Virus record (IMG/VR): IMGVR_UViG_3300021197_001690
Coordinates: 1-38,084 of that record
Length of the DNA: 38,084 bases
Direction: 5' to 3' (one strand)
Origin: a virus
Below the pieces are notes generated by a model that did not search any database, was not told where the DNA came from, and saw only the letters and a program-made list of their open reading frames with translations. Shown here piece after piece: positions 8,585 to 37,965 of the stretch. The first letter of the stretch is position 1. Every line of letters begins with the position of its first letter. The position numbers were made by a program, and so were the translations under genes.

Positions 8585-10579
8585 ATGCCAGATTACGGAT
8601 GGGCATATATAAATCTGGATGTGCTCAAGGACATTCATGGACCAACTGGCTCCATATTAATGAAGTCCAGCAGTACAGAGTTATCTGGCTCTAAATTTTT
8701 AGCATATGCCACTGCGTCAAATAAGGTAGGCATTGGTCTAAATTTCCCGACAGTTCTGCCTTCCTATCAGCTAGACGTATCCGCTAGCTCTGGGCAGCTA
8801 ATTGCCGCACGATATACTGGCGATGTGGTAATATCAGGCTCTGCGCTCATAACCGGTAGCCTAACAGTTGCTACCCTGCATGCAGATACAGTCATATCCT
8901 CTAGTAACTTAATCGTGAGAGATGAGGTTATTGGCTTAGGTTTTGGTAGCGGCAGTGGTCAAACAGGCTCTGTTGGCGACCGTGGCTTTGTCTTTGGTCT
9001 TGATGGTGACCTAAACCAAGCATTTCTTTGGGACCAGACATCAGGCAGCTTTATCTTGGGCAAGATTGGTGCAGCCGGTCCAGAAGGCACGACATTCGAT
9101 ATTCCAGAAGCAAACCTAAGCAAGTTAAAGGTTGGCGAAGTAACAGGGTCTAAGGGTAGATTTGATTTTACAAACGGCAATGTTGTAATTACTGGATCTT
9201 ATTATGGCGATGGTTCAAATCTGCAAAACCTGCCAGCACCCACATCCCTTTCTGGCACCACCGCTCAGTTAACAACAGGCGTTGAAACGTCTGGGTATCT
9301 TAGAGTTAGTGGTTCTTCAACGCTAAACGCCGTAACTGCAACTACAATTTCCGGCTCTAGCACACTGCAGGCGGTTGGACCAACAATACTTGGAAACAAC
9401 CTGTCAGTATCAGGCTCCAGTACACTAAAGGAATTATTTAGCACTGAAATTTCTGCCTCCGGTGGGATGCAGATTGTGAATGAAACAATTCTAGGTGGCA
9501 ACTTAACCGTGAGCGGCACCGTATCTGTTGATAATAACATATCTGGCTCGGGTACCTTCCAAGCGGTTGGGTCAACAATCCTGGGTAATTCCCTAACAGT
9601 TTCCGGTTCATCAGTCTTCGACGGCACTATTAAAGCAAACAACCTAGGTGCCGATACAGACAACACTGTTGTTATTGTCAATAGTTCAGGACTTCTTAAG
9701 ACCGACGAGGTTGATAGTCGAATATTCGGCTCAACCCTAGTGGACGGAAGCGGCGCGTCCGGACAAATAACACTCTGGAATGATACCGACACCGTTCAAG
9801 GCTCTTCAGCGTTGACATATAATGGTAGTGCGCTTCTGATCGACGACGCTATTTCTGGATCCGGCACACTTCAAGCTGTAGGAGATACAGTCCTCGGCGG
9901 AAAACTAAATGTTTCAAGCTCTGCTGAGTTCGCAAATACTGTCTCAGGCTCCAGCACATTACAGATGGTGGGTGATTCGGTCTTCGGCGGCAAACTAAAT
10001 GTCTCCAGTTCTGCAACATTTGGCAGCTCTATTTCTGGTTCTAGCACGCTCCAAGCAGTCGGTGATTCTGTCCTTGGCGGAAAACTAAACGTGTCTAGTT
10101 CCGCAACATTCGGAAGCTCCATTTCAGGTTCTAGCACGCTTCAAGCAGTGGGCAACACGGTTATCGGTGGCAACCTTTCAGTGTCTGGGACAATCAACTT
10201 TAGTGGCGGTACTATTGACAACACCACAATTGGTTCAAATACTCCTGCCCCCGTAAATCAAACAGCCGGTAGTGTTAAGTACCGTTCAAAGGATAACGGT
10301 GACAGCCCCTATACTATTGTTACAAGCGACTACATCATCGGAGTTGATACCAGCGGCGGCGCCGTTCAGATTAACCTACAGGCTGCATCAGCTGCCGGAA
10401 CCGGCAGGATGTTAGTAATTAAGGACATCAAGGGGACCGCCGGCACTAACAACATCACAATAGAGCCAAACGGTTCGGAACTAATTGATAGGCAGGCAAA
10501 CATGATTATTGCTGCCAATTCGGGCTCTGTTATATTATTTTGTGATGGAACTGAGTATTTTATTGCAGGAACAAGATAA
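8585..10579 (+). CDS. Repeat-containing fibre-like structural protein
   Basis: This 664-residue protein starts after TTAGGAG. The N-terminal part (about 1-180) includes VSGSALITGSLTVATLHADT and INGL-type beta repeats typical of fibre shafts. Residues about 240-535 hold degenerate 25-30 residue repeats of the form SGSSTLQAVGxTVLGGxLxVSSS. The C-terminal ~95 residues (DYIIGVDTSGGAVQ...MLVIKD...) form a beta domain shared with three other proteins in this window. The design (N-terminal attachment, repetitive shaft, C-terminal tip) is that of phage fibres. Whether it decorates capsid or tail is not shown; its position before the scaffold favours neither. It ends in a TAATG overlap with the next gene. 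Confidence 0.82.
   Translation: MPDYGWAYINLDVLKDIHGPTGSILMKSSSTELSGSKFLAYATASNKVGIGLNFPTVLPSYQLDVSASSGQLIAARYTGDVVISGSALITGSLTVATLHADTVISSSNLIVRDEVIGLGFGSGSGQTGSVGDRGFVFGLDGDLNQAFLWDQTSGSFILGKIGAAGPEGTTFDIPEANLSKLKVGEVTGSKGRFDFTNGNVVITGSYYGDGSNLQNLPAPTSLSGTTAQLTTGVETSGYLRVSGSSTLNAVTATTISGSSTLQAVGPTILGNNLSVSGSSTLKELFSTEISASGGMQIVNETILGGNLTVSGTVSVDNNISGSGTFQAVGSTILGNSLTVSGSSVFDGTIKANNLGADTDNTVVIVNSSGLLKTDEVDSRIFGSTLVDGSGASGQITLWNDTDTVQGSSALTYNGSALLIDDAISGSGTLQAVGDTVLGGKLNVSSSAEFANTVSGSSTLQMVGDSVFGGKLNVSSSATFGSSISGSSTLQAVGDSVLGGKLNVSSSATFGSSISGSSTLQAVGNTVIGGNLSVSGTINFSGGTIDNTTIGSNTPAPVNQTAGSVKYRSKDNGDSPYTIVTSDYIIGVDTSGGAVQINLQAASAAGTGRMLVIKDIKGTAGTNNITIEPNGSELIDRQANMIIAANSGSVILFCDGTEYFIAGTR
9350..10165 (+). 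repeat. Tandem coding repeats in fibre shaft
   Basis: Units of about 84-110 bases encode SGSSTLQAVG (D/N)(S/T)VLGGKLNVSSSATFGSSI variants. The last units (about 9940-10165) are the most alike, while earlier ones are degenerate. The pattern indicates growth by unequal recombination within the gene. It is protein-coding repetition, not a CRISPR array. Confidence 0.8.
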
Positions 10580-13230: not shown

Positions 13231-15351
13231 ATGGCTTATAAAACAATTATCGGTACGATGAAGACTGCCGGTACACTTGATATCTCCTCTGGTGATATTG
13301 ATCTAGCCGCTGGTTCTGTTGATAACGCAGACCTCGCAGGCTCTATTGCTAACTCTAAGTTGGCAAACGACTCCGTTACGGTTAGCGCTGGTAACGGTCT
13401 TTCAGGTGGTGGCGAGGTTGACCTCGGTGCCTCTGTCGCTCTCGCCCTAGATCTTAACGAGCTAACCGCCGTTCAGATCGCTTCCGGCGACTTTCTCCCC
13501 TTGGTTGACGCTTCCGACAACAGCACCAAGAAGGAAAGCATTGATGACATTGCTACCCTTTTTGCTGGTGACGGACTAGCCGCTTCCAGTGCGGTTCTCG
13601 CTGTTCAAGTTTCTGGTGCTGTGCAGGTTGCTTCCGACAAGGTCGGTATCGCTGCCGCCTTCGCTGGTAACGGTCTCGCTGCCTCTGGTAGTTCCACTCA
13701 CATCGCTGCTTTGTCACTAGATCTTAACGAACTAAGTGCCGCCGCAGTCGACGTGGCTAACGATAGTTTCGCTATGCTTGATGCCACCGACAACAGTTCC
13801 AAGAAGGAAAGCATCGCTGACCTCATGACTGCCGTTGCTGGTAACGGACTTAAGGCTGCTTCTGGTGTTCTCGCCATGGACCTTAACGAACTAACCGAGG
13901 CTACGATCGATCGTGCAAACGACTACGTCATCTTCATCGATGCTGACGATAGCAACTCCACCAAGAAGGAGAGTTTCGCTGACCTAGCCGCCAAACTCGC
14001 TGATGGTGACGGTATTGAGGCTTCCTCTGGTAAACTCAGTGTCAAGGTTGACGACAGCACAGTAGAGATTGACACTGATACAGTTCGCGTCAAGGCTGCT
14101 GGTGTTAACGTGTCTCACCTCAACTCCGCAGTTGCCGGTAACGGTCTACAAGGTGGTGCGGGCTCTGCCCTCGCTCTTGACCTTAACGAACTAACTGCAG
14201 TTCAAATCGCCTCTGGCGACTTCCTCCCCTTGGTGGATGCTTCTGATAACAGCACCAAGAAGGAAAGCATTGACGATATCGCCACTCTCTTCGCTGGTGA
14301 TGGACTTGGCGCTTCTAGCGCTGTCCTCAGCGTTCAAGTAAGTGGTGCAATGAGCGTCAGCAGCGACAAGGTCGGTCTAAAAGCCTCTATCGCTGGTGCC
14401 GGTCTTGCTGCTTCTGGTAGCTCCAACCACATGGAAGTTCTTTCACTAGATCTTTCTGAGTATAGCCGCGTCGACATCGCCGCCGGCGACCACTTCCTCG
14501 TTCTTGATTCTGACGGTGCTACCGAGCAACTTGAGCGTGTTGACAAGTTCTCCGACTTCCTCGCTGGTGATGGTCTAGAGGCTTCCTCTGGCGTCATGGC
14601 TGTCAAGGTTGACGATAGTTCTATCGAGATCAACTCTGATACCGTCCGCGTTAAGGCTTCTGGTGTCACCAACGCAATGCTTGCGAACAGCGCTATCAGC
14701 GTTGCTGGTCAAAGCATCTCACTTGGTGGTTCTGCCACTGCTCTAACCGGTCTAACCGACCTTGACGTTGGTTCTGCTGGTAACTTCACATTCTTCGACA
14801 CCGTTGGCGCCAACACGCTAACCCTCGGTGCCGCCACGTCAACCGTTAAGGTTGCTGGTGACCTCGAAGTCGGTGGTACTCTAAACACTGTTAGCACCAC
14901 TGAACTACTCGTCGAAGACAAGACCATTCAAGTTGCGAGAGGCGCTGCCGATTCTTCTGCCGCCGATGGTGCCGGTCTAAAGATCGACGGTTCTGACAAG
15001 TCAATTACTTGGAGCCACTCCGATCAAGCGTTCAAGGTTGATGCTGATCTCTATGCGGCTGCCGGTCTCTCCGGACGTCTACACGCTATCACCGCTGATA
15101 CTACCCTATCCCAAGGACACTTCTTGGTCAAGGTCTCCACCTCTGGTGGTGCCGTCACCGTGACCCTACCCAGCAGCATGCCTACTGGTAAGGTCTTCGT
15201 GATCAAGGACGCTGGCGCTGCTAGCAGCAACGCCATCACGATTGCTACCGCTGGTTCAGAGACCATCGATGGTGCCGCGAGCATCCAGATCATCTCTAAC
15301 TACGGTGCTGCGAACCTTATGTTCGATGGCAGCAACTACCTAGTCTGGTAA
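13231..15351 (+). CDS. Large repetitive virion structural protein
   Basis: This 706-residue protein has a strong TAGGAGGG site 10 bases upstream. It consists of repeats with the landmarks LDLNELTAVQIASGDFLPLV, DASDNSTKKESIDDIA and FAGDGLxASSAVL. Two segments, near residues 71-125 and 313-367, are nearly identical in protein sequence. The last ~75 residues (FLVKVSTSGGAVTVTLP...VFVIKDAG...IDGAASIQII) are the shared beta domain. Codon use is strongly biased (GGT, GCT, AAC, GAC, TTC, CTA), like the major capsid and sheath genes, which points to an abundant virion protein, perhaps a capsid fibre or decoration. An intrinsic terminator follows directly. Confidence 0.83.
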   Translation: MAYKTIIGTMKTAGTLDISSGDIDLAAGSVDNADLAGSIANSKLANDSVTVSAGNGLSGGGEVDLGASVALALDLNELTAVQIASGDFLPLVDASDNSTKKESIDDIATLFAGDGLAASSAVLAVQVSGAVQVASDKVGIAAAFAGNGLAASGSSTHIAALSLDLNELSAAAVDVANDSFAMLDATDNSSKKESIADLMTAVAGNGLKAASGVLAMDLNELTEATIDRANDYVIFIDADDSNSTKKESFADLAAKLADGDGIEASSGKLSVKVDDSTVEIDTDTVRVKAAGVNVSHLNSAVAGNGLQGGAGSALALDLNELTAVQIASGDFLPLVDASDNSTKKESIDDIATLFAGDGLGASSAVLSVQVSGAMSVSSDKVGLKASIAGAGLAASGSSNHMEVLSLDLSEYSRVDIAAGDHFLVLDSDGATEQLERVDKFSDFLAGDGLEASSGVMAVKVDDSSIEINSDTVRVKASGVTNAMLANSAISVAGQSISLGGSATALTGLTDLDVGSAGNFTFFDTVGANTLTLGAATSTVKVAGDLEVGGTLNTVSTTELLVEDKTIQVARGAADSSAADGAGLKIDGSDKSITWSHSDQAFKVDADLYAAAGLSGRLHAITADTTLSQGHFLVKVSTSGGAVTVTLPSSMPTGKVFVIKDAGAASSNAITIATAGSETIDGAASIQIISNYGAANLMFDGSNYLVW

Positions 15352-33890: not shown

Positions 33891-35108
33891 ATGAGTAGTT
33901 TTAAGGGTAAAAACAGCCAAGGCACGAAAGAGTTATTCTATAATCGACTAAGTTATTCCGTAGATGCCTTTCCACCACAAGCGGAGCCGCAACCGACAAA
34001 GGATTTCCACTTTTCAGAAAAGATGATGTATGGTAGAATAGACAAGAGACATCAGCCGATAATTCTAAACAACTTTTTCCTAAAGCCTGTGAAGTCTCAA
34101 AGCGGCAACACCTCTGGTCCTCTTCGTGCTGTAAACTTTGTGGTTGACGCTTTTGAGGCATTTGTGTTAGAATTTAAGAAAGCCGCCTTTGCTGGCAAAC
34201 TTGACGACGAGGATGCTAATCTATATAATATCACTGCCAAGAGGGCTTTCCTAGACCCCAATACAAGATATAAACAATACACAGAAAGTTTACGTGATAT
34301 CTTTCTGAACAAATTTTTGAATCAACATAGGAAATTGCAGATAAACAGCTTTAATGCCTTTATGCCCCTGTTCCTTGAGTTTATAAATACGATGTCCGAG
34401 GTTGATTGTGTTACAAAATCCGCTTTTATACCCAGTAGCTATTGCAACCCATTGGTATCGGGGCTAACAATTTATATAGCCAACTTAGATGCGTCTGATG
34501 ATTCTGCAAAGGGCGCTTTTATAGGCAGTAGAAATTTTGAGTTTTATAAAATAGCTGCAGCAAAGCACGGCTTTTCAATTGATACAAATGCTCCTTGGAA
34601 ATTAATAGCAGATATTGCCGGCGAGGGCATGTTGACGTATGCTAGGAGATATGGACTCAATAATGAGAACGACATATTAAGTAATTATTATCAGCGTGCA
34701 TACAATAGGGACATAGAGGACATTCAGTTAATGGCTTTAAACTTTTATAACGCATTTGTTGCCAGAAACCCTCGTACTAGGTCCGTAAACTCTTCTGGTG
34801 ACGTGGCGGTTACTTGCCGAGTGTCAATTACACCGGAAGAGGTGAGTAATCAATATGATAACCAATATTGGCTTGACAAATATATAGACATCAAGTATAA
34901 TGAACTTAGAACGCCCGGAAGCGAAGGAAAATTGGTCAATCTTAAAAAAGATGCTAATGCATTGTTGCGCATCGGAGGTATTGGTGATTCCTTGAATGTA
35001 GTCAACAATACCCTAAGAGGGCTCGACAACTACAATGGGTCCTTCGCTAAACAGAAGGCAAGAGTAACATATAGAGACACTGGTGTCCTCACAAAACCGA
35101 CATATTAA
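33891..35108 (+). CDS. Putative virion (baseplate/tail) protein, conserved
   Basis: This 405-residue protein has no membrane segment, signal or known motif. The N-terminus is basic with FNRLSYSVDAFPP-like turns, and a FNAFMPLFLEFINTM segment (near 154-168) and NFEFYKIAAAKHGFSIDTNAPWKLIADIAGEGML (about 213-246) stand out. Length and place after the hub-like gene suggest a structural or assembly protein of the late operon. It ends in TAATG overlap with the polymerase-like gene, so the two are probably coupled. Confidence 0.7.
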   Translation: MSSFKGKNSQGTKELFYNRLSYSVDAFPPQAEPQPTKDFHFSEKMMYGRIDKRHQPIILNNFFLKPVKSQSGNTSGPLRAVNFVVDAFEAFVLEFKKAAFAGKLDDEDANLYNITAKRAFLDPNTRYKQYTESLRDIFLNKFLNQHRKLQINSFNAFMPLFLEFINTMSEVDCVTKSAFIPSSYCNPLVSGLTIYIANLDASDDSAKGAFIGSRNFEFYKIAAAKHGFSIDTNAPWKLIADIAGEGMLTYARRYGLNNENDILSNYYQRAYNRDIEDIQLMALNFYNAFVARNPRTRSVNSSGDVAVTCRVSITPEEVSNQYDNQYWLDKYIDIKYNELRTPGSEGKLVNLKKDANALLRIGGIGDSLNVVNNTLRGLDNYNGSFAKQKARVTYRDTGVLTKPTY

Positions 35109-36298
35109 TGCTATTTCAAACACTTGACGACAAACAAGAATGCGTCGGTGTCTATTGCAACAATGAGTTGCATTTTGACGTTATACCCGATGACCTAACT
35201 CGCACTTGGAACTACTCTTCGTTTCTCCAAGACAAGGAGAATGTGGAGTATGCATTTCTATATGCCCAGAAGGCTCTAGGAGACGCCTGTCCGGTCCACC
35301 TCTCCGAAGAGTGGGAAACTACCAATGAAAGATTGAAGGCGTTCCTACGTGCCTTTACGACGGCTAAAATAGATCTTACTGAAAACTGCTTTTTTGACCT
35401 TGTAAACGAGCGTTTCTTGCGAGAATATTGCGAGATGAGAAACAAAATTACAGAGCACGTCTTGAAAACCCACGAGAAGCCCGAAAATTATGACTTTTTG
35501 GTGGATTTGACGAAAGTTTTGCACGATATAAGGCACCGTAAGGTTCAGATTGACCCTTGGGCACTCCGAGATGTTATGCACGAGAAGCGAGCACGTAACT
35601 TTACACAAAAACTAAGCCAGATTTCACTTTCGTGTGATTATAACATCTTTGGCACCAAGACCGGACGCCTGACAACCAAGAAAAACAGTTTTCCAATTCT
35701 TACGATGGACAAGAAGTTCCGAAAAGTGGTCACATCGACCAACGATTGGCTCGTATCGCTTGATTTTAACGGTGCTGAGCTGCGCACCTTTTTGGCTTTG
35801 TCCGACATGGAGCAGCCGGAACATGACGTCCACGAGTGGAACCTCCAAAACGTTTATCGTGGTATCGGCACCAGAGAAGAGGTTAAGGAAAGATTCTTTG
35901 CTTGGCTTTACAACCCTAAATCACAAGATCGTTTGCCAGAGGGCATCTATGATAAAGATGCCGTAATGGAGAAATATTGGTATGATGGTGCCGTCAGTAA
36001 CCCATTTGACAGAACTATCCCGGCAGACGAACATCATGCCATGAGTTACTTGATTCAGAGCACCTGTTCAGACGTAGTGCTGCGCCAAATGATCAAGCTT
36101 GACAAATATCTTCGAGATAAAGAGTCGTTTGTTGCATTCTGCGTGCATGACGAGGTTGTATTAGACGTAACAAACGTTGAAATGCCATCCATGATCAATT
36201 CTCTAATTGAACATTTCTCAAATACTGCTTTAGGAAAGTTCGGAGTTAATGTAAAATATGGCAAGAACTACGGGGATATGAGATCATGGAAACAATAA
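35108..36298 (+). CDS. Short family A DNA polymerase (exonuclease-less)
   Basis: DNA polymerase I-type polymerase domain. The 396-residue protein has the family A signatures: TGRLTT (185-190); motif A SLDFNGAELR with Asp219 and Glu224; a motif B RxxxKxxxFxxxY set at Arg256, Lys260, Phe264, Tyr268 (REEVKERFFAWLYNP); QSTCSDVV (317-324); and motif C HDE (347-349). The catalytic acids are present, so activity is plausible. E. coli Pol I is 928 residues and its exonuclease-containing Klenow fragment about 605; here the first 170 residues lack exonuclease motifs and must stand in for the thumb. T4 itself uses a family B polymerase, so a family A gene inside the late operon is unusual. It overlaps the next gene by 13 bases. 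Confidence 0.88.
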   Translation: MLFQTLDDKQECVGVYCNNELHFDVIPDDLTRTWNYSSFLQDKENVEYAFLYAQKALGDACPVHLSEEWETTNERLKAFLRAFTTAKIDLTENCFFDLVNERFLREYCEMRNKITEHVLKTHEKPENYDFLVDLTKVLHDIRHRKVQIDPWALRDVMHEKRARNFTQKLSQISLSCDYNIFGTKTGRLTTKKNSFPILTMDKKFRKVVTSTNDWLVSLDFNGAELRTFLALSDMEQPEHDVHEWNLQNVYRGIGTREEVKERFFAWLYNPKSQDRLPEGIYDKDAVMEKYWYDGAVSNPFDRTIPADEHHAMSYLIQSTCSDVVLRQMIKLDKYLRDKESFVAFCVHDEVVLDVTNVEMPSMINSLIEHFSNTALGKFGVNVKYGKNYGDMRSWKQ

Positions 36299-37116
36299 TT
36301 GGACTTGGGCAGGCAGGCTGCGCCATCGCCGATCGGTTCGCCCAATATCCTCAATATGAGGTTTACAAGATGGATGTGGGACTCAAGAGGACCCCACGAA
36401 CTTATGGGCTGAAGCGCACCACAACTCCCGAAGAGCAAGAAGAATCCTTGGGCAATTTAAAGCGATTTTTTAAAGGCGTTGAGGGTGACGTTCTCTTTAT
36501 TGTAGCGGGATCTGGAATGGTCTCCGGAGCTTCTTTAAAGATCTTGGAACAAATCAAGAAATGCAAACTGCACATACTTTACATTTATGCTGACCCTGAG
36601 CTGCTCGGCGAAACGGCTCAAATGCAACAGCGCGTAACGTTTAATGTTTTTCAAGAATACTCACGTTCCGGACTTTTTGAAAATATTATTTTGATAGACA
36701 ATAGCAGACTAGAGGAGATGCTGGGGGACGTTCCAATTATTGGCTTTTATGACAAGCTGAATGAATTAATGGTTCCTACTATGCATATGGTCAATGTATT
36801 GCGCCACAGCGATAGCATTATGGATAATATTTCCCCCTCTCATAGTATTAGTCGGATCGTTTCTTACGGTCTGGTAAATTTTGACACCGGTGAAGAAAAT
36901 TTATTTTTTAATCTTGACAATGTGCGAGAAAAGGTGTATTATTATGCTATCAATGAAGAAAAGCTAAGAGAGCAAGGGGATCTCCATAAGAGGGTCATAG
37001 CACAAATTAAACAAAACGCCGAAAATACAAAAACTACGTATGGGATATATCCCACTCAGTATGATCAAGATTATGTTTATTGTGTAGCCTACAGCTCAAT
37101 CATTCAAGAAAAATAG
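36286..37116 (+). CDS. Tubulin/FtsZ-like GTPase-fold protein
   Basis: The 276-residue protein carries FtsZ/tubulin landmarks in order. A glycine-rich loop IIGLGQAGCAIADRF (4-18) parallels the FtsZ GVGGAGG loop. VAGSGMVSGAS (73-83) occupies the place of the GGGTGTG tubulin signature but is degenerate. ENIILIDNSRLEEML (132-146) matches the FtsZ IPNDRLLE strand and helix, and PIIGFYDKLNELM (150-162) the start of H7. The T7 segment (about 184-193, PSHSISRIVS) lacks the catalytic Asp of FtsZ, so GTP hydrolysis or polymerisation may be altered. It lacks FtsZ's C-terminal tail. An alternative is a Rossmann nucleotide-binding protein, but the order of motifs favours tubulin. Confidence 0.75.
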   Translation: METIIGLGQAGCAIADRFAQYPQYEVYKMDVGLKRTPRTYGLKRTTTPEEQEESLGNLKRFFKGVEGDVLFIVAGSGMVSGASLKILEQIKKCKLHILYIYADPELLGETAQMQQRVTFNVFQEYSRSGLFENIILIDNSRLEEMLGDVPIIGFYDKLNELMVPTMHMVNVLRHSDSIMDNISPSHSISRIVSYGLVNFDTGEENLFFNLDNVREKVYYYAINEEKLREQGDLHKRVIAQIKQNAENTKTTYGIYPTQYDQDYVYCVAYSSIIQEK

Positions 37117-37209: not shown

Positions 37210-37965
37210 ATGGGAATCAATCTAGACAAGATGCGAGCAAAGCTCGCCGCAGTGCAGAACAATGGAGATACCTCTAGGAGTGCTTTTTGGCGTCCAAACG
37301 ACGGCAACCAAACTATTCGTGTGGTGCCTACCGCAGACGGCGACCCCTTCAAGGAGGTCTATTTTCACTACAATGTAAGTAAGGGTGGCATTCTGTGCCC
37401 CAAGCGTAACTTTGGTGACGCTTGCCCCATCTGTGACTTCGCTTCCAATCTATGGCGCGAAGGAGCAGACAAGAATGATGAGTCCTCCAAGAAGATGGCA
37501 AAGAGCCTCTTCGTGCGACAGCGTTTCTTCAGCCCGGTCCTTGTCCGTGGCGAGGAGACTGACGGTGTTCGCTGGTGGGGCTATGGTAAGACTGCTTACG
37601 AGAGTCTGCTGAATCTAGTGCTAAACCCAGATTACGGTGATATCACCGATACTGATGAGGGAACTGATCTCGTGCTAAACTACGGGAAGCCGCCAGGCGC
37701 TCAGTTCCCACAGACGAAGCTCCAGCCGCGTCGTCGCCCGTCTCCCCTCTCTGAGGATGCGGATACGACCACGATGTATCTGAATTCTATTCAAGACATC
37801 ATGGAGCTTTTTGAGCGTAAGACCCCTGATGAGGTCGAGAAGCTTCTAGAGGAATTCATTTCTGGTGGTGTCGATGCTGAGGGCAACTCTACGGAGACCG
37901 TACAGTATTCGAAGACCAACACAGACTCGGTGGACAGTGCGTTCAACGAGCTAATGAATGCCTAA
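37210..37965 (+). CDS. Single-stranded DNA-binding protein, T4 gp32-like
   Basis: gp32 coats single-stranded DNA during replication, recombination and repair. The 251-residue protein has a zinc site of the gp32 type: His53, Cys63, Cys72 and Cys75 (YFHYNVSKGGILCPKRNF then CPICDF); T4 uses His64, Cys77, Cys87 and Cys90. The N-terminus (MGINLDKMRAKLA) and an RVVP strand near 37-40 fit, and the C-terminus is acidic, as needed for partner binding, though shorter than in T4 (301 residues). It follows its own promoter and precedes a terminator. AAGGAA upstream is a fair ribosome site. Confidence 0.92.
   Translation: MGINLDKMRAKLAAVQNNGDTSRSAFWRPNDGNQTIRVVPTADGDPFKEVYFHYNVSKGGILCPKRNFGDACPICDFASNLWREGADKNDESSKKMAKSLFVRQRFFSPVLVRGEETDGVRWWGYGKTAYESLLNLVLNPDYGDITDTDEGTDLVLNYGKPPGAQFPQTKLQPRRRPSPLSEDADTTTMYLNSIQDIMELFERKTPDEVEKLLEEFISGGVDAEGNSTETVQYSKTNTDSVDSAFNELMNA

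Follow-up and report, generated by a model that had tools for sequence, protein, structure and literature searches.

The phage tubulins described so far stem mainly from nucleus-forming jumbo phages, in which they form dynamic spindles that are dispensable for some phages. The PhuZ protein of phage phiKZ has been crystallised with bound GDP, and the subunits of phiKZ TubZ, tubulin and FtsZ contact each other through the T7 loop, the base of helix H8 and strand S9 (PMC3678025). The family described here also has the tubulin fold but is separate from these; it occurs in T4-like marine phages of ordinary size, is encoded by a core gene of the replication operon, and its catalytic and filament-contact elements appear to be eroded. 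The analysed stretch of DNA, a 38-kb fragment of an uncultured virus, is referred to as the window.

The terminase and the gp23 major capsid protein of the window are both T4-type, with best matches in Flavobacterium phage immuto and Microcystis phage Mel-JY01 and, in the case of gp23, also in Rhodothermus phage RM378. The original prediction, made from the sequence of the window, had placed the gene in a T4-like phage, and these matches agree, immuto being the nearest. The nearest matches of terminase and gp23 suggest that the virus of the window belongs to the Far-T4 group, whose T4-type capsid and terminase genes fall outside the near- and cyano-T4 groups; Far-T4 has been described as an uncultured clade neighbouring the T4 phages (PMC4360716). 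Far-T4-like phages are reported to turn over rapidly in seawater, and their predicted main hosts are Flavobacteriales (PMC13037479). The tubulin-fold gene is a core gene of this marine, apparently Far-T4-like lineage and is present as a single copy in each of 10 large related records (62–186 kb), while immuto, Mel-JY01 and phiKZ, in which it was also sought, contain no copy. A second, paralogous tubulin, as in an alpha/beta-like pair, was found neither in the ten large records nor in nearby open reading frames (ORFs). Elsewhere in the window, positions 8585–10579 and 13231–15351 likely encode fibre or other structural proteins and contain internal repeats (SGSSTLQAVG-like units; duplicated blocks near LDLNELTAVQIASGDFLPLVDASDNSTKKES).

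The ORF singled out by the original prediction is a real gene and lies at the coordinates given there (Table 1). Its Ka/Ks of 0.03–0.06 against close homologues, with Ks nearly saturated, implies strong purifying selection, and at least 580 IMG/VR stretches encode relatives of the protein. A search of 50,697 phage records returned no relative, and no cellular source was found among 84,980 GTDB genomes. FtsZ matches in cultured phage records were discarded, as they resemble host FtsZ in mis-assigned records. Pfam, PHROGs and NCBIfam gave no above-threshold match to the protein: the Pfam Tubulin model PF00091 reaches 17.4 bits, below its cut-off of 33, and there is no match to phrog_4733 or PF22334. 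TIGR00065 matches only three of 57 family members (best E 0.068), and a search of PDB sequences found FtsZ at E 0.7 only with the single protein and nothing with the family profile. The family is distinct from FtsZ, CetZ, TubZ and PhuZ; we set it apart from FtsZ and PhuZ because existing family models fail to recognise it and the T7 acids are absent, although fold and pocket are retained (see below). The family appears to be undescribed: the Far-T4 literature, of which our coverage is limited, yielded no mention of tubulin or FtsZ, and priority is uncertain.

Table 1. Coordinates of the tubulin-fold gene, its conserved elements and its neighbours in the window.
Feature	Position	Strand	Basis
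Conserved gene, 405 aa, without Pfam or PHROG match	33891..35108	+	At -2 in 73/100 loci, at -3 in 23/86
PolA-type DNA polymerase, 396 aa	35108..36298	+	DNA_pol_A, E 4.5e-15
Tubulin/FtsZ-fold gene, 276 aa, ATG start	36286..37116	+	ORF; at least 580 IMG/VR relatives; AF2; VIA-align
T1 loop GLGQAGC (family GLGxAGC), residues 6-12	36301..36321	+	hhalign onto FtsZ GVGGGGG
T2-loop Asp30	36373..36375	+	D in 76/85; within FtsZ NTD stretch (hhalign)
T4 phosphate loop GSGMVSGAS, residues 75-83 (AGSGMVSGAS, 74-83)	36508..36534	+	Conservation; PhuZ likeness
Family motif Q-E-Y-[AS]-R-S, residues 123-128, end of H4-equivalent helix	36652..36669	+	Conservation; putative contact site
Asn139, guanine-binding Asn of tubulin DN / FtsZ PND motif	36700..36702	+	80/85; aligned to FtsZ N165
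Central helix H7, residues 154-173, with aromatic 155 and Asn159	36745..36804	+	DSSP of model
T7/H8-equivalent segment, residues 174-190, no H8, no conserved catalytic acids	36805..36855	+	Loop in both AF2 models
C-terminal domain, residues 191-276, short hairpin in place of FtsZ H9	36856..37113	+	DSSP
gp32-type SSB	37210..37965	+	gp32, E 4e-17; phrog_1192, E 1.3e-26

As far as computation permits, the tubulin fold of the protein is established. AlphaFold2 (AF2) modelling with 57 relatives gave a pLDDT of 94.7 and a pTM of 0.92, the five models (93.8–94.7) being in agreement, and modelling with 18 relatives a pLDDT of 87.7. The two-domain tubulin fold, with the central helix H7 joining the domains, is present in the models and in the VIA-align comparisons. 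Among the VIA-align matches listed, CetZ is the best (Z 24.5, rmsd 2.9, 254 of 276 residues), with TubZ at Z 23.2 over 270 residues and FtsZ at Z 21.8; Foldseek matches FtsZ at E 2.5e-13, with an identity of 10–15%. The best 50 VIA-align matches and the best 50 Foldseek matches in the PDB are all tubulin-superfamily entries; PhuZ is not among the VIA-align matches listed, an absence from which we draw nothing. A Rossmann/NAD-binding fold, to which the GxGxxG loop and weak Pfam matches (TrkA_N, ApbA) might have pointed and which the original prediction had named, as a Rossmann dehydrogenase, as the outcome that would speak against it, was ruled out because all listed fold matches belong to the tubulin superfamily.

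Profile comparison, which does not depend on a predicted structure, gave the same answer. With hhalign, the family profile aligned to a profile of eight FtsZ sequences with a score of 44.0 (P = 2.4e-5), whereas 59 column-shuffled FtsZ profiles reached 21.5 at most and the reversed profile 15.6; the shared register comprises T1, the T2 Asp, the Asn of “PND/IDN” and the H7 Asn. Against single sequences of PhuZ or tubulin, hhalign produced no meaningful alignment. The three landmarks of the original prediction (a glycine-rich loop, AGSGMVSGAS and DNSRLEEM, the last a strand/helix at residues 138–145) are real and stand in tubulin order, in a register scoring above the shuffled controls, and the tubulin/FtsZ fold proposed from them is the one on which AF2, VIA-align and Foldseek all agree. 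We are thus highly confident that the 276-residue protein, as modelled, has a complete tubulin/FtsZ fold.

Conservation of the nucleotide pocket was counted over 85 distinct family members. In the T1 loop, G8 is present in every member, G6 in 84, G11 in 83 and C12 in 82; in the T4 loop, the counts are 71 for G75, 73 each for G77 and S80, and 60 for G81. The family T4 loop is GSGxISGAS-like, and none of the 85 members has the tubulin signature in its strict form, [SAG]GGTG[SA]G, so that AGSGMVSGAS, once called tubulin-signature-like, is a T4-like loop but not the signature itself. The T4 loop of phiKZ PhuZ, GGASGS, is also off the strict signature. Helix H7 carries Tyr or Phe at position 155 in 69 members and the guanine-binding N159, aligned to FtsZ N186, in 80. 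All six pocket residues tested are retained in 75/85 members. Together, T1, the T2 Asp, the T4 loop, the Asn of the DN motif and the aromatic residue and Asn of H7 are conserved residues from which we infer a guanine-nucleotide pocket, and GTP binding by the protein is likely on this residue pattern. Five members (L016, L018, L083, L091 and L095) have lost N139 and/or N159, and in the same subclade (L016:4992-5825, L018:5001-5834, L083:10001-10837, L091 and L095) the GSG of the T4 loop is replaced, for example by DGSE or DGAE. Normal guanine binding is probably absent from this subclade, and its loss of N139/N159 (5/85 members) implies that GTP binding may be dispensable in some lineages.

The T7 positions were assigned by a gapless count in which N159 corresponds to FtsZ N186, and registers of up to ±2 were also checked. 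Residues 182 and 185 take the places of FtsZ D209 and D212 and are acidic in 0/85 members, and register shifts of ±1 or ±2 restored no conserved acid pair across these 85 members. The spacing from N159 to S7 is fixed at 32 residues in 85/85. The degenerate T7 region proposed for the window protein is therefore found family-wide and not in this protein alone, while its location has to be moved from residues 184–193 to about 176–187. Because T7, the loop inserted by a neighbouring subunit, has no conserved acid and H8 and H9 are absent from the model, canonical hydrolysis is improbable, and canonical GTP catalysis has probably been lost.

A displaced catalytic acid is nevertheless possible, because residue 176, one of the closest acids, is Asp or Glu in 60/85 members (71%); the other, D/E187, is acidic in 52/85, and at least one acid lies within residues 174–190 in 84/85. 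The protein might accordingly be an ordinary cytomotive tubulin that does hydrolyse GTP, with its catalytic acid at a new position such as D/E176 or D/E187. Yet neither of these acids is invariant, residues 184 and 187 are both acidic in only 23/85 members, and pocket residues conserved in 76–85 of 85 members reveal strong constraint in the very same family, which makes such a protein very improbable in our judgement. In the window protein itself, Asp occupies positions 176 and 180, outside the catalytic positions.

Helix H8 is missing from both AF2 models. The S7–S8 linker measures 14–15 residues in 85/85 members, about half the FtsZ length, which implies that H9 is absent as well. In the models, the lower face of the usual protofilament is thus devoid of H8 and H9, and since the contacts known from phiKZ TubZ, tubulin and FtsZ involve H8 (at its base) together with T7 and S9, formation of a canonical protofilament is doubtful. 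Such a protofilament is presupposed by the non-dynamic filaments of the original prediction. In this reading, the protein would assemble with GTP, without hydrolysing it, into static cables for the positioning of phage DNA or capsids. The tubulin fold and the conserved pocket are compatible with it, and catalytically dead PhuZ D190A does polymerise with GTP into stable filaments (PMC4244570); however, the predicted lower face has neither H8 and H9 nor the T7 acids, T7 and the H8 base belong to the known contact region (PMC3678025), and the guanine-binding residues have been lost in a subclade. Moreover, neither chimallin (phrog_4795) nor PhuZ (phrog_4733 / PF22334) was detected in the ten records of 62–186 kb, which may be incomplete, although both were detected in the phiKZ positive control. 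Static filaments hence stay on the list as one, unlikely, explanation, and for a PhuZ-like positioning of capsids, also put forward earlier, we obtained no support.

Across 126 distinct loci, the gene order is baseplate, the 405-aa gene, PolA polymerase, tubulin fold, gp32, UvsX/RecA, 5'-exonuclease and DnaB-type helicase, with ribonucleotide reductase and dCMP deaminase further downstream; the last few genes occur in subsets of loci only. The PolA-type polymerase lies immediately upstream of the tubulin-fold gene in 87/120 loci and two genes upstream in 26/100, and gp32 lies immediately downstream in 94/123 and at +2 in 25/111. The polymerase stop codon lies beyond the start of the tubulin-fold gene, the two genes sharing 13 bases, and –13 is the commonest spacing among loci, which implies translational coupling. 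When loci were selected by gp32 alone and had at least 1 kb of upstream sequence, the tubulin-fold gene was present within 3 kb in 65 of 66, the single exception having merely 1.4 kb of upstream sequence.

Several further observations concern the genes around the operon. The PolA-type polymerase of the window appears compact or strongly diverged; its best Pfam DNA_pol_A stretch covers residues 307–389, and relatives encode a separate 5'-exonuclease downstream. Between polymerase and tubulin-fold gene, L061:9687-9998 and about 16 further loci contain a 103-aa ORF with the motif KLVRDKIPEII...EEaxEF...EELADvxEV, which by eye resembles MazG-type nucleotide pyrophosphohydrolases and has no Pfam match. 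Apparent second copies of the tubulin-fold family upstream (cluster-0 ORFs) turned out to be this MazG-like ORF, joined to the family by clustering. The replication operon of some relatives includes an FKBP-type prolyl isomerase gene (L112:7795-8310), and a ribonucleotide reductase gene with an intein containing a LAGLIDADG domain is found at L037:13709-16759.

With ribonucleotide reductase and dCMP deaminase as neighbours, and the small MazG-like ORF directly upstream in some genomes, the fold might have acquired a new use, in which it binds GTP or dGTP and controls the synthesis of DNA or of nucleotides, the protein then being a nucleotide sensor or enzyme and neither polymer nor scaffold. 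Against this, no catalytic motif was recognised, the lack of above-threshold matches extends to all three profile collections, and we know of no precedent for a tubulin fold in such a role; we consider it quite improbable.

The operon position also bears on an action against host FtsZ, a role that the original prediction had offered too, in which the protein would be a decoy that caps FtsZ protofilaments via its intact nucleotide face, so that division is blocked while growth of the infected cell goes on. FtsZ inhibitors of phage origin are known, T7 Gp0.4 being an example, and a conserved upper, nucleotide-binding face combined with an altered lower face is the shape expected of a cap. However, the low identity to FtsZ makes mixed contacts doubtful, and a core replication-operon gene that is kept in 65/66 loci is unlike typical host-takeover inhibitors, which are usually small, early and variable. 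An FtsZ decoy is therefore improbable, if a little less so than a nucleotide sensor. Gp0.4 is named among phage proteins that form a complex with FtsZ (PMC13423816).

In the reading that we prefer, and to which as a combined statement we assign an even chance, the tubulin-fold protein binds GTP without hydrolysing it and serves the phage replication machinery as a scaffold or adaptor, and is no spindle of the PhuZ kind. Its part in replication is one that we infer from the operon, whose gene order suggests a shared function but does not prove it. According to this proposal, a compact, divergent tubulin/FtsZ-fold protein would form a core part of the replication/recombination operon, its conserved pocket would hold GTP while hydrolysis by the usual mechanism is absent, and the GTP-liganded protein would be a monomer or a non-canonical oligomer. 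It would dock the translationally coupled PolA-type polymerase, gp32 or UvsX, or anchor the replication centre, via family-specific invariant surfaces such as QEYARS, in which Q123, Y125, R127 and S128 are found in 85/85 members; H167 and Y259 are invariant as well. We prefer a scaffold over a PhuZ spindle because chimallin is absent from the ten large records and the lower interface appears to be gone, and over an FtsZ decoy because of the 10–15% identity and the core position in the replication operon; that one subclade has lost its guanine-binding residues is easier to reconcile with a structural role than with a filament driven by GTP. The original interpretation is thereby supported in part, and the operon context, the lineage-wide conservation and the subclade that has lost its guanine-binding residues are additions to it.

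A wider claim, namely that the phage replisome or replication centre has taken up a non-hydrolysing tubulin-fold protein as a constitutive part in practically all members of an abundant marine lineage, is advanced tentatively, at slightly less than an even chance. If true, a cytoskeletal protein would have been converted to a replication factor. The family offers a natural test of what a tubulin fold is capable of when GTP is not hydrolysed. It suggests that T4-like replication involves spatial organisation or a structural cofactor, and would give a function-bearing name to a family left unannotated in current databases.

Comparison with known systems places the protein within the tubulin superfamily but apart from each of its described branches. 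CetZ (PDB 3zid, 4b45, 4b46) is the closest fold among the VIA-align matches listed and has a similar layout of the guanine pocket; it is, however, archaeal and cellular, has 330–342 residues in these entries and shares 12–16% identity with the 276-residue phage protein, which has no canonical T7, H8 or H9. FtsZ shares the fold and the positions of T1, T2, the DN Asn and the H7 Asn, whereas its GGGTGTG T4 loop, its NxDFxD T7 loop (0/85), H8/H9 and the division operon are all missing from the phage protein or its surroundings. TubZ of plasmid and phage partition systems (PDB 2xka, 4ei7) is alike in fold but has 15% identity and, in these entries, chains about 110–140 residues longer; a recognisable tubR was not noted next to the phage gene, and one would not expect a lytic T4-like phage to have a protein with a partition role. 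The best viral structural match, the FtsZ-like A0A6J5RW92 of an uncultured Caudovirales phage (Foldseek E 1.0e-11, TMq 0.79), has 452 residues and 14% identity to the 276-aa protein. PhuZ/phiKZ TubZ is likewise a phage-encoded tubulin fold, and the G-x-[AV]-S-G of the family T4 loop resembles phiKZ GGASGS, but the new family has no phrog_4733/PF22334 match, no chimallin and no catalytic T7 acid and, unlike PhuZ, its gene resides in the replication operon of T4-like records of 147–186 kb.
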